Assembly (NCBI GenBank): GCA_003243975.1
Contig: QHBJ01000018.1
Location: forward strand, 1-37,506
Source: Candidatus Meridianibacter frigidus
Lineage (GTDB): Bacteria > Vulcanimicrobiota > Vulcanimicrobiia > Vulcanimicrobiales > Vulcanimicrobiaceae
Length of the DNA stretch: 37,506 bases
Direction of reading: 5' to 3'
This document shows positions 1-36,270 of this stretch, one piece after another (position 1 is the stretch's first letter; each line of letters begins with the position of its first letter). A program made the position numbers and the translations under genes. The notes beneath the pieces are model-generated. The model did no database searches. It worked only from the letters and a program-made list of their open reading frames with translations, and was not told the origin of the DNA.

Positions 1-19
1 TCAATCTCATCAGCGATAA

Positions 20-9216: not shown

Positions 9217-10023
9217 TTAGCCCGAAGGCGAAGGCGCGAGAACTTGCAACACGTCGTCAACCTTCCGGTAGCCGCGGGGAACGGCAAAGACGCTCTCATC
9301 CGGGGTACCCAAGGATGCCGAAGTCAGATCGAGCTTGACCATGCCAGCGTGCTCGCCGGTCCCAGTAAACCATAACCGAACCGGAATGCCTGAAAGGTCG
9401 TCTGCCAACGCCACATCACCGATGAGGTCCTGCGCCGCACCGCCGTGCTTCTGGCCATGCATCATCAGATGGAAGACGCTCGCGGTGTGACCATTAACCG
9501 GCTCGTGACCGACCAAGGTGAGCGATTGGTTGAAAACGTCGTACTCCGTCATCGACTTCGCCCCGCGCAGAAATTGATCGAGCGGGGATGACGGCGCGGC
9601 GATTGGTTGCGGCGACGGTGTAGATGTCGCCATCGGTAGCGCACGCGTCTTCGTTTGGTAGTATACACGCTTTTGGTCCGACCAAAACGTTGCCACACGC
9701 GCCCGCTGATCGTAAACGAATGTGACCGCGCCCCGCGGCAAGAACTGCGCGATTAACGCCCCGGCAGTCGAATCTCCGCCAAAGAATTCAAGATGAATCA
9801 CGTCCAGCCGCACCCGGCGCCGGCTGGCCATCACTGCTAGCTCCGCCGAGAATCTGACCTGGGCGCCCGTGACCTGCGCTTGCGCAGTGAACGTCGCCCG
9901 GCCGGAAAATCCCTGAATAGGCGTGGGCGGCGCGGTTTGCGCCATCGCTGGAAGCGCAGTGCAACATGTTCCTGCAGCCGCAGCGCAAAGAACGACAGCC
10001 AGGGATGGGCGCGTCTGCCTCAT
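9217..10023 (-). CDS. Exported protein of unknown function, first gene of the M48-like/RDD operon
   Basis: A 268-residue protein with ATG at 10023 and a signal peptide to about residue 28 (...LPAMAQ). The body is rich in beta strands with alternating residues (ATFTAQAQVTGAQVRFSAELAV, VTFVYDQRARVATFW, KRVYYQTKTR), interrupted by a Pro/Ser loop at about 133-147. The layout is reminiscent of LolA-like or DUF4412-type half-barrels that bind lipid or hydrophobic ligand, but I see no diagnostic motif. The stop is 8 bases before the M48-like/RDD gene, so the two are surely co-transcribed. Confidence 0.6.
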   Translation of the reverse strand: MRQTRPSLAVVLCAAAAGTCCTALPAMAQTAPPTPIQGFSGRATFTAQAQVTGAQVRFSAELAVMASRRRVRLDVIHLEFFGGDSTAGALIAQFLPRGAVTFVYDQRARVATFWSDQKRVYYQTKTRALPMATSTPSPQPIAAPSSPLDQFLRGAKSMTEYDVFNQSLTLVGHEPVNGHTASVFHLMMHGQKHGGAAQDLIGDVALADDLSGIPVRLWFTGTGEHAGMVKLDLTSASLGTPDESVFAVPRGYRKVDDVLQVLAPSPSG

Positions 10024-10060
10024 GAGCAGCCCTTTTCTGCTTTCCGCCTTGCGACCTTCA

Positions 10061-10102
10061 AAACAAAGAGGGCCGCGATTTTCGCGGCCCTCCTTGTTTT
10101 TT
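10061..10102 (-). terminator. Strong intrinsic terminator
   Basis: An 11-base perfect stem GAGGGCCGCGA/TCGCGGCCCTC (10068-10078 and 10082-10092) with a 3-base TTT loop. On the minus strand it follows the stop at 10114 and is trailed by TTTGTTTT. On the plus strand it is trailed by CTTGTTTTTTG, so it could stop transcription in both directions. Confidence 0.88.
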
Positions 10103-10113
10103 GTTGTCTTACG

Positions 10114-10572
10114 CTAGCACTTGCAAGCGCGGATCATGTACCGGACATCTCCGGCGGCCGCGCGATCATGAGTTAGCGCAGTTGCCCGGTAGACATTTAC
10201 GGTCGGATTTCGCTCACCCGGTCCAAGCAATTGGTCGACCGCCACGAGCTCGTAGATCACGTGGTGCAGCATCGCTGATTCGCTCGCGATGCGAGGCGGA
10301 ATAACAGTCGTTTGCGACCTTGCAACGCTGGTACCGACAACGTTGTCCAATGCTCCAATTGCCGAATAAAGATTGCTCAACGCAGGACGCAGATCAACGC
10401 CACCGGCGCGCGTCTTATCGGTATGTTCCAGATAGTAGCGGGCATCGAGCAAGTACACGAGTGACTGCCGGTAGCGTGGTTCGGCAGATCGCGGCGCACC
10501 GGCCATCGCGACCTGTGCGGTGATCAAGAGTAAAGCCAGTATGCTGTAGATGCTTCGAAGAGCGGTTTTCAT
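10114..10572 (-). CDS. Small exported helical protein of unknown function
   Basis: A 152-residue protein with ATG at 10572; GGAGG lies about 12 bases upstream. The signal peptide ends near residue 24 (...QVAMAGAP). The mature part is helical (YRQSLVYLLDARYYLEHTD, LRPALSNLYSAIGALDNVV, SAMLHHVIYELVAVDQLLG) and ends in CKC. No family recognised. It is followed by a strong terminator and preceded by another small exported protein on the same strand. Confidence 0.6.
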   Translation of the reverse strand: MKTALRSIYSILALLLITAQVAMAGAPRSAEPRYRQSLVYLLDARYYLEHTDKTRAGGVDLRPALSNLYSAIGALDNVVGTSVARSQTTVIPPRIASESAMLHHVIYELVAVDQLLGPGERNPTVNVYRATALTHDRAAAGDVRYMIRACKC

Positions 10573-22056: not shown

Positions 22057-23930
<1,874 letters not shown>

Positions 23931-34454: not shown

Positions 34455-34847
34455 ATGCTCGCAATCCGGCTGATCATGACGGCACTATGCGCCCTCGGGC
34501 TCTACGCCTCCGTCTTCATGCTTCGTAAGGCGCGTTTGGGCGCCCAGGGCCAGCTTGCCGAGCCGAGCGTGGTGCAGCGGCCTGCCGCGCGTTTGTTTTT
34601 CGGCGTGTCCAACGCCGCATTCGGTATCGCCTTTTATGTGATTTCCGCCGCCCTTATCTGGATCGGCACGCCGTGGGCAACCCCGGCGCTGCTTATCGCT
34701 GTCGGACTGGCAGCGCTCACTTCCGTTTATTTGGCATACAGTCTGCTATTTGTAACGAGGATGCCTTGCCCGTTTTGCTGGACCGGGCACTTCGTCAACT
34801 GGCTGCTCGCACTCGGCGCCATCCTGTTGCTGCATCGCGCCGCATAG
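34455..34847 (+). CDS. VKOR-like membrane protein with a single CxxC
   Basis: A 130-residue, four-helix membrane protein. ATG 34455 has AAAGGGAG directly upstream. The C-terminal half matches the VKOR active-site helix: Cys105-Pro-Phe-Cys108 in TRMPCPFCWTGHFVNW. The segment RLFFGVSNAAFGIAFY resembles the VKOR loop end (F-G-x-x-N-A), but the two loop Cys that normally shuttle electrons to CxxC are absent. The only other Cys is Cys12 in helix 1. It may still oxidise or reduce a partner using quinone, or may rely on an external thioredoxin-like domain. Divergent from the VTT gene. Confidence 0.7.
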   Translation: MLAIRLIMTALCALGLYASVFMLRKARLGAQGQLAEPSVVQRPAARLFFGVSNAAFGIAFYVISAALIWIGTPWATPALLIAVGLAALTSVYLAYSLLFVTRMPCPFCWTGHFVNWLLALGAILLLHRAA

Positions 34848-34863
34848 GTGCAAATCGCCGTTA

Positions 34864-34893
34864 TTGTTCGGCCCGGCAGCACGGGAGTATAAT
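34864..34893 (+). promoter_or_regulatory. Promoter for the orphan RNA
   Basis: A perfect -10 TATAAT (34888-34893) with a -35-like TTGTTC (34864-34869) 18 bases upstream. A start near 34900 would put the first hairpin at the 5' end of the transcript. The element lies just after the stop of the VKOR-like gene. Confidence 0.6.
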
Positions 34894-34899
34894 CGCCCT

Positions 34900-35005
34900 C
34901 TCCGGTGAGGTACCGGAGATTTCCAACACTGAACGCCGGCAGCTGAGACTACCGCGCAGTGATCAAAACAAAGAAAGACCCGCGCGAGCGCACGGGCCTT
35001 TTTTT
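34900..35005 (+). ncRNA. Candidate orphan structured RNA, about 106 bases
   Basis: The interval between a TATAAT promoter and an intrinsic terminator holds no reading frame but three stems. Hairpin 1 is CTCCGG/CCGGAG (34900-34905, 34913-34918) with a 7-base loop TGAGGTA. Hairpin 2 has outer stem CACTG/CAGTG (34927-34931, 34957-34961) and inner stem CGGCAG/CTACCG (34937-34942, 34949-34954, one mismatch) with loop CTGAGA. The third is the terminator stem. The next gene downstream is convergent, so this is not a leader. It does not show the conserved blocks of SRP RNA, tmRNA, 6S RNA or the common riboswitches I checked. Family unknown; a trans-acting small RNA is plausible. Confidence 0.55.
34977..35005 (+). 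terminator. Intrinsic terminator of the orphan RNA
   Basis: CCCGCGC (34979-34985) pairs with GCACGGG (34990-34996), with one mismatch and a GAGC loop, followed by a run of seven T after CC. Confidence 0.8.
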
Positions 35006-35058
35006 ACGTTGGATTATGAATGAACTCCGCGGGGACGAGAACGAACGGTGATCGTTGC

Positions 35059-35111: not shown

Positions 35112-35780
35112 CTACATCGACGATTTCATCTTGCCGTTGGCATCGAGACGGTACACAGACGCGAGATCGCCCATCGCTTTTCCAAGGATGACGTGGTACT
35201 GCGCATCCGCCCCAACGCCGTACTTCGCATCGACGTCCTTCATGATCTGCAAGTGCAGCGCGTGTCCGACCAGGTGATCAAGCCCCACTTCAACATTATG
35301 TCTGCTCCCGCCGATGGAGCTTGCACCCCACAGAGCGCCCGCGAGGGCCTCGCCGTTTTTCGGATCGACCGCGGGCTGCGAGGGAAGGGCAACGTGCTTG
35401 ACGGTTACATAGTGGAGCGCATCTGAGATGATGAAGTCGAAAGTCTTGACAAACTGGCCGACGGCGGCCTTGCCGTAGGTCTTTGACAACGAGGCTACTT
35501 CCGCGTTGGTTTTGTCGCCCGCCAATGTCTTGAGCAGCGTCATGGTGCTGTAGTGCTTAGGCCCACCGCCGGCCATCACCACGGCGAGCGTAACGCCAAG
35601 GGCCGGAGCGCCGGTATAGACGCCGGGACCGCCAAAACGTGAGTTCATATTCAGGTTCACGCCGGGCGCCGGCAACATCTTCTTGGCCATGCCACCCATG
35701 TGCGTAGCCGCAAAGCTAGGGGCGCTTGCCGTTAGCGCAGCAGCTAGGGTGACGGCTCCAAAAAAGCGCGATGTATGCAT
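35112..35780 (-). CDS. Exported protein of unknown function
   Basis: A 222-residue protein with ATG 35780; AAAGGA lies 5 bases upstream, so the earlier start at 35813 is rejected. The signal peptide ends near residue 25 (...APSFAA). Gly/Met-rich residues follow (THMGGMAKKMLP), then a mostly helical body (HYSTMTLLKTLAG, VGQFVKTFDFIISDALHYV, NVEVGLDHLVGHALHLQIMKDV) with several His that could bind metal, though no motif is certain. No family recognised. It follows rpiB by 25 bases. Confidence 0.6.
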   Translation of the reverse strand: MHTSRFFGAVTLAAALTASAPSFAATHMGGMAKKMLPAPGVNLNMNSRFGGPGVYTGAPALGVTLAVVMAGGGPKHYSTMTLLKTLAGDKTNAEVASLSKTYGKAAVGQFVKTFDFIISDALHYVTVKHVALPSQPAVDPKNGEALAGALWGASSIGGSRHNVEVGLDHLVGHALHLQIMKDVDAKYGVGADAQYHVILGKAMGDLASVYRLDANGKMKSSM

Positions 35781-35805
35781 ACAATCCTTTCGAGAGTAGA
35801 GATGA

Positions 35806-36270
35806 TTACGCATCAGAAACGGGGCTAAGGGCGTTTGGATTGGGCTCGACCGCGTCGATCATCGCCGCGTAGGCGGAATCTGCGGTGGGCGCCGTGGAGA
35901 ACCACGCGTCCAGTATCTGTTCAGCCGCTGCCGGCGAGGTCCCGGAAAGGCCGAGCGCCAGAACGTTGGCGTCGTTCCATTCGCGCGCTGCGGTTGCCGT
36001 CCGCGCGTCGGAGCAGAGCGCTGCGCGCGCGCCGGGAATCTTGTTGGCCGCAATGGATACTCCAGTCCCCGACCAGCAGCATACGATGCCATAATCCACG
36101 CCGCCATCGGTCACGGACCGCGCGACCGCGTGACCCACCTGCGGCCAGTTCGCAGCGCCGCTGCGGCCCAACGCGCCAAGAAGCAACACTTCATGCCCGC
36201 GGTTTTTCAGGGAAGCGACGATTGCATCGGTTAGCTCGGTGCGCTCATCGCTGCCCAGCGCGACCTTCAT
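35806..36270 (-). CDS. rpiB: Ribose-5-phosphate isomerase B family sugar isomerase
   Basis: A 154-residue isomerase of the RpiB/LacAB family, interconverting ribulose-5-phosphate and ribose-5-phosphate. Family blocks: MKVALGSDE at the start, CCWSGTGVSIAANKIPGARAALC (phosphate and ring-opening region) and AREWNDANVLALG. ATG 36270 is 4 bases after the previous stop. Some relatives act on allose or other aldose phosphates, so the precise substrate is not certain. Confidence 0.9.
   Translation of the reverse strand: MKVALGSDERTELTDAIVASLKNRGHEVLLLGALGRSGAANWPQVGHAVARSVTDGGVDYGIVCCWSGTGVSIAANKIPGARAALCSDARTATAAREWNDANVLALGLSGTSPAAAEQILDAWFSTAPTADSAYAAMIDAVEPNPNALSPVSDA

Follow-up and report, generated by a model that had tools for sequence, protein, structure and literature searches.

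The window analysed here, a 37,506-nucleotide stretch (contig G000:C38) of the Candidatus Meridianibacter frigidus genome (1.95 Mb, 96% complete), harbours a VKOR-family gene at 34455-34847 on the + strand (PF07884, E 9.7e-11), the closest named relatives of which come from Candidatus Eremiobacterota MAGs. The genes around it are arranged in the order VTT/DedA-like (-), VKOR (+), a small RNA gene (+), a 233-aa protein (-), rpiB (-) and a NUDIX-like frame (+). VKOR lies upstream of the RNA and marks its slot, without being part of it. The 233-aa protein (35112-35813, -) has no Pfam or NCBIfam match and is conserved as a neighbour of rpiB in many of the family's genomes. A mechanically called ORF at 34673-35023 overlaps VKOR out of frame.

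The intergenic segment downstream of VKOR contains a putative sigma-70-type promoter on the + strand, composed of a -35 element TTGTTC (34864-34869) and, after an 18-nt spacer, the -10 box TATAAT (34888-34893) that the first-pass annotation had pointed out and whose position directly 5' of the RNA is kept in all relatives. The -35 element is weak, matching three of six consensus positions, which explains why a consensus scan missed it. The pattern TTGnnn-16..19-TAnnAT, with a background rate of 1.8e-4 per position, ends at the 5' anchor of the RNA in 38/38 copies compared, giving the RNA its own promoter at a fixed distance, as expected of a stand-alone sRNA gene. Judged from the position of this predicted promoter, transcription would start near 34900.

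The RNA gene itself occupies 34894-35005 (+), supported by its fold and by syntenic homologues, with a predicted transcript of ~106 nt. Trimmed at the promoter (34894-35006), it folds at -40.7 kcal/mol with a z-score of -3.48, and none of 200 shuffles is equally stable; the two hairpins folded alone reach z = -2.68, and the initially proposed span with the promoter included gives an unremarkable z of only -1.49. The fold of the trimmed RNA yields just the two separate hairpins and the terminator that had been claimed. Hairpin P1 (34899-34919, +), UCUCCGG-UGAGGUA-CCGGAGA, is supported by the fold and by pairing across copies. Hairpin P2 (34927-34961, +), supported by the fold and by covariation, consists of an outer CACUG/CAGUG layer (34927-34931/34957-34961) and an inner GGCAG-CTGAGA-CTACC layer (34938-34953) closed by the loop CUGAGA. 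Both layers of the hairpin described earlier as two-layered are therefore present, but the inner one carries a central C.A mismatch (GGcAG/CUaCC). Likewise, the intrinsic terminator hairpin (34970-35005, +), recovered by the fold and by a terminator scan of the - strand, does end in the expected T7 run (34999-35005), but its stem contains two A.C mismatches on the + strand. These mismatches correspond to G.U pairs on the - strand, so the terminator may also serve the convergent gene and probably works for both strands. In addition, the window copy bears an A-rich linker and a U7 tail.

BLASTN of the gap against 60 relatives returned no match besides itself, because the sequences are too diverged, and an exact 34-mer searched in the genome contigs gave no match either. 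The VKOR-downstream gaps of relatives nevertheless have the same layout of promoter, stems and terminator, with compensatory changes in the stems, an outcome that bears out the comparison proposed as a check in the first-pass annotation. A covariance model built from 11 relatives with the terminator included (R1) finds the RNA in 38 of 149 genomes of the phylum (E <= 1e-4), every one in the same family. Its main match lies right after VKOR in 36 of the 38; in G032 it stands next to what is left of VKOR, and in G109 it falls at the edge of a contig. The P2 motif adds nine genomes, namely the window's own, G027 and seven of genus g25, bringing the total to ~47. The P2 core GGNAGCTGAGNCTNCCGC occurs in 10 of 148 genomes, once in each and always 3' of VKOR, compared with five scattered matches of the reversed-pattern control. 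Overall, the RNA gene has a constant chromosomal position in many genera of a single family of uncultured Eremiobacterota, always on the VKOR strand and directly after VKOR in nearly all carriers, so that the label of an orphan RNA proved too strong. Its length ranges from 88 to 162 nt in the relatives, and its hairpins vary strongly too. Several genomes have VKOR without the RNA, which is therefore dispensable.

The gene 3' of the RNA varies between genomes; it is DUF233 or RpiB, convergent, in nearly all of them and a same-strand NUDIX gene in G011 (L023). In several g36 genomes, a ~110-nt palindromic element (CTTTTCG...CGAAAAG) sits directly 3' of the RNA (L090:3547-3660, and from 3547 on in L077 and L101 and from 1577 on in L049). 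It is single-copy in the four genomes searched, with an identity of 78-100%.

Since R1 also matches ordinary terminators, it is no proof that the window copy belongs to the family: it scores the window RNA at 24.5 bits, below the 27.6-31.1 bits of an ordinary terminator at window 10017-10133. A second model (R2) was therefore built without the terminator, only from the g25 and G027 copies and leaving out the window copy. R2 has a single match in the window, the best in the whole genome, at 34893-34961, with an E-value of 0.039 per genome that is modest taken alone because chance matches reach similar levels in other genomes. Taken together with the slot, the promoter and the shared loop motif, this match leads us to regard membership of the window copy as established.

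Comparison of the copies revealed that the stems are maintained by compensatory changes. P1 is paired in 131 of 134 cells (98%) over 22 copies, and outer P2, which shows many different but mostly fully paired sequences, in 115 of 119 cells (97%) over 22-24 copies; none of 5000 shuffles of the 3' strands reaches these values, with the caveat that the stem strands were picked by hand, as MAFFT misaligned the P2 flanks. Unassisted RNAalifold on 15 g36 copies gave the strongest support to the terminator, moderate support to P2 and support to the apical part only of P1, and the terminator hairpin of the relatives shows the strongest covariation. P1, outer P2 and RNAalifold thus point to a conserved structure as found in sRNA genes, with the hand-chosen strands as the caveat. 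The P2 loop core AGC-n2..4-AG-n-CU is present in 33/38 copies, counting true P2 loops. In most other genera a further helix, P3, pairs GGCAG with CTGC beyond the terminator, with the variants AACAG/CTGTT, GGCAA/TTGCT and AGCAG/CTGCT; taken by itself, this helix is weak evidence.

The RNA is separable from VKOR. In G032 (L044, G032:C32), internal loss has cut VKOR to its first codons, while the RNA (R1 match, E 5.5e-17) and its promoter are intact, which argues that the RNA is a gene of its own. No conserved reading frame was found in the 38 copies, the ORFs of which differ in frame, start and length, and a coding reading was accordingly ruled out. The homologous gaps and this lack of a shared ORF support the proposal of a small transcription unit with no coding frame. 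That the unit is not a leader also holds in the window, because the next gene is convergent.

At the RNA locus of the window no family reaches the gathering thresholds of Rfam 15, in agreement with the first-pass annotation, and nothing exceeds them at the RNA loci of 18 relatives. The sole above-threshold Rfam match in the window is a TPP riboswitch at 23747-23852 (-), with 57.2 bits. Sub-threshold matches to Leu_leader (RF00512; 20.6-24.5 bits vs gathering 50) and Thr_leader (RF00506; 18.6-20.8 bits vs gathering 55) are driven by the terminator hairpin, as is a weak match to MicC; moreover, the window RNA differs from both leaders in having neither a leader peptide nor a downstream operon on the same strand. 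Like 6S RNA (RF00013), it is a small non-coding RNA on a bacterial chromosome, but 6S RNA forms one long 180-nt hairpin and the window RNA three short separate ones; the 6S model matches other places in relatives and none in the window's genome. The small bacterial SRP RNA (RF00169) is also ~100 nt long, but the genome has its own copy at G000:C8:23215-23313, and the model has no match at the RNA locus. Both the 6S and the SRP identity were accordingly rejected.

The best counterparts are the intergenic trans-encoded bacterial sRNAs, some of which are Hfq-associated. The window RNA shares with them a sigma-70 promoter, a length of ~100 nt, separate hairpins, an A-rich linker and a terminator with U7, and differs in having no sequence match to a described sRNA family in the Rfam searches. 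Such a linker and tail fit Hfq binding, and Hfq is encoded in the window's genome (G000:C9, E 3.9e-26). Hfq was not detected in the RNA carriers G010, G011 and G017, so it would be no general requirement unless these MAGs are incomplete, which is possible. We found no earlier description of an sRNA in Candidatus Eremiobacterota in the open-access literature. The family looks genuine and was previously unlisted, although its kind is already known.

In some genera, the slot is filled by a longer RNA gene with GGAGGGCG, a start codon and the peptide motif M-x-[PS]-QDPP[GK]; the carriers comprise the VKOR-less G007, G028 and G018, in which the longer RNA has a promoter of equal spacing, and the VKOR-bearing G004 and G034. 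A GGAGGG..GATCCACC hairpin, once considered as an RNA module, was discarded when translation revealed a Shine-Dalgarno sequence (SD) and a micro-ORF. This micro-ORF family has the SD GGAGGGCG[GA], a start codon ATG or TTG and MxPQDPPG followed by ~8 residues (consensus MEPQDPPGxxARxxRA), with 27 distinct instances (loci L138-L165). Longer RNA genes in or near the VKOR/VTT slot (L150 in G004, L130 in G007, L131 in G028, L133 in G021, and L159-L160 in G093 and G018) have a CTCGAG palindrome at the 5' end, or a start that is related to it, and some have two micro-ORF copies. The same micro-ORF also precedes rimP-nusA at 17 retrieved loci, one of them in the window's genome (G000:C19:76872-76900, -; L161 1501-1529, -). 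As PPG is a stall motif of the EF-P type, the rimP-nusA copy looks like a PPG-stalling leader peptide. PMC4176338 deals with polyproline stalling.

These features almost certainly define a conserved RNA gene, and we favour a stand-alone, lineage-specific small regulatory RNA that acts in trans, a mechanism to which we assign a probability of about 0.6. We propose that the sigma-70-type promoter downstream of VKOR would drive a ~106-nt transcript, which would fold into P1, P2 and the terminator hairpin. Target mRNAs may then be contacted in trans through the exposed loop, the linker rich in A and the U-tail, with Hfq as a possible helper in some members.

The main rival is an RNA that binds protein as a scaffold or sponge, in which the stems would be conserved as structure, the P2 loop AGC..AG..CU would be the protein recognition site and the RNA would titrate or guide a protein with no mRNA pairing. 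In its favour, pairing and the loop core (33/38 copies) persist although the stem sequences change freely, and Hfq is undetected in some carriers; however, there is no repeated binding motif as in CsrB-type sponges, and both the length (88-162 nt) and the hairpins vary strongly. To our knowledge no partner protein is known, and we consider this role unlikely, if worth keeping in view. It is improbable that the RNA is no more than the VKOR transcript's 3' end together with a bidirectional terminator, with hairpins for mRNA stability or termination. Its constant place directly after VKOR on the same strand would agree with this, as would a terminator whose pairing on the - strand is no worse than on the + strand, but a dedicated promoter separates VKOR from the RNA in 38/38 copies. 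The RNA and promoter kept beside the VKOR remnant of G032 already disfavour such an origin, and longer promoter-bearing RNA genes fill the slot in VKOR-less genomes.

The longer slot RNAs with SD and MxPQDPPG (G034, G004, G007, G028 and G018), among them that of G034, which combines the micro-ORF with a P2 core of the window type, also raise the idea that the window RNA descends from a longer bifunctional RNA with a QDPPG micropeptide, of which it keeps the non-coding part and may be decaying. The window RNA has neither SD nor micro-ORF, however; its promoter, P1, P2 and terminator seem well kept and not in decay, and outside G034 the homology of the long forms to it rests on the slot and the 5' end, which makes this descent quite improbable. 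A riboswitch or attenuator leader is more improbable still: hairpins followed by a terminator do resemble attenuators, and the NUDIX gene of G011 does follow on the same strand, but the next gene is convergent in nearly all genomes and no Rfam riboswitch matches at the RNA locus.

On a broader and rather doubtful view, the slot would house a rapidly evolving RNA gene, bifunctional in some genera with a ribosome-stalling QDPPG micropeptide and a structure shared with the rimP-nusA leader, and a purely non-coding sRNA in the window's lineage, born from a duplicated leader. Through the micro-ORF forms present in sister genera, the relation of an sRNA to a leader RNA can be put to the test. Moreover, synteny together with promoter conservation can recover an RNA that BLASTN and Rfam miss. 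A locus-fixed sRNA gene, present in ~47 genomes and retained even beside a broken VKOR, provides Eremiobacterota with a concrete model of how genes may be controlled after transcription.
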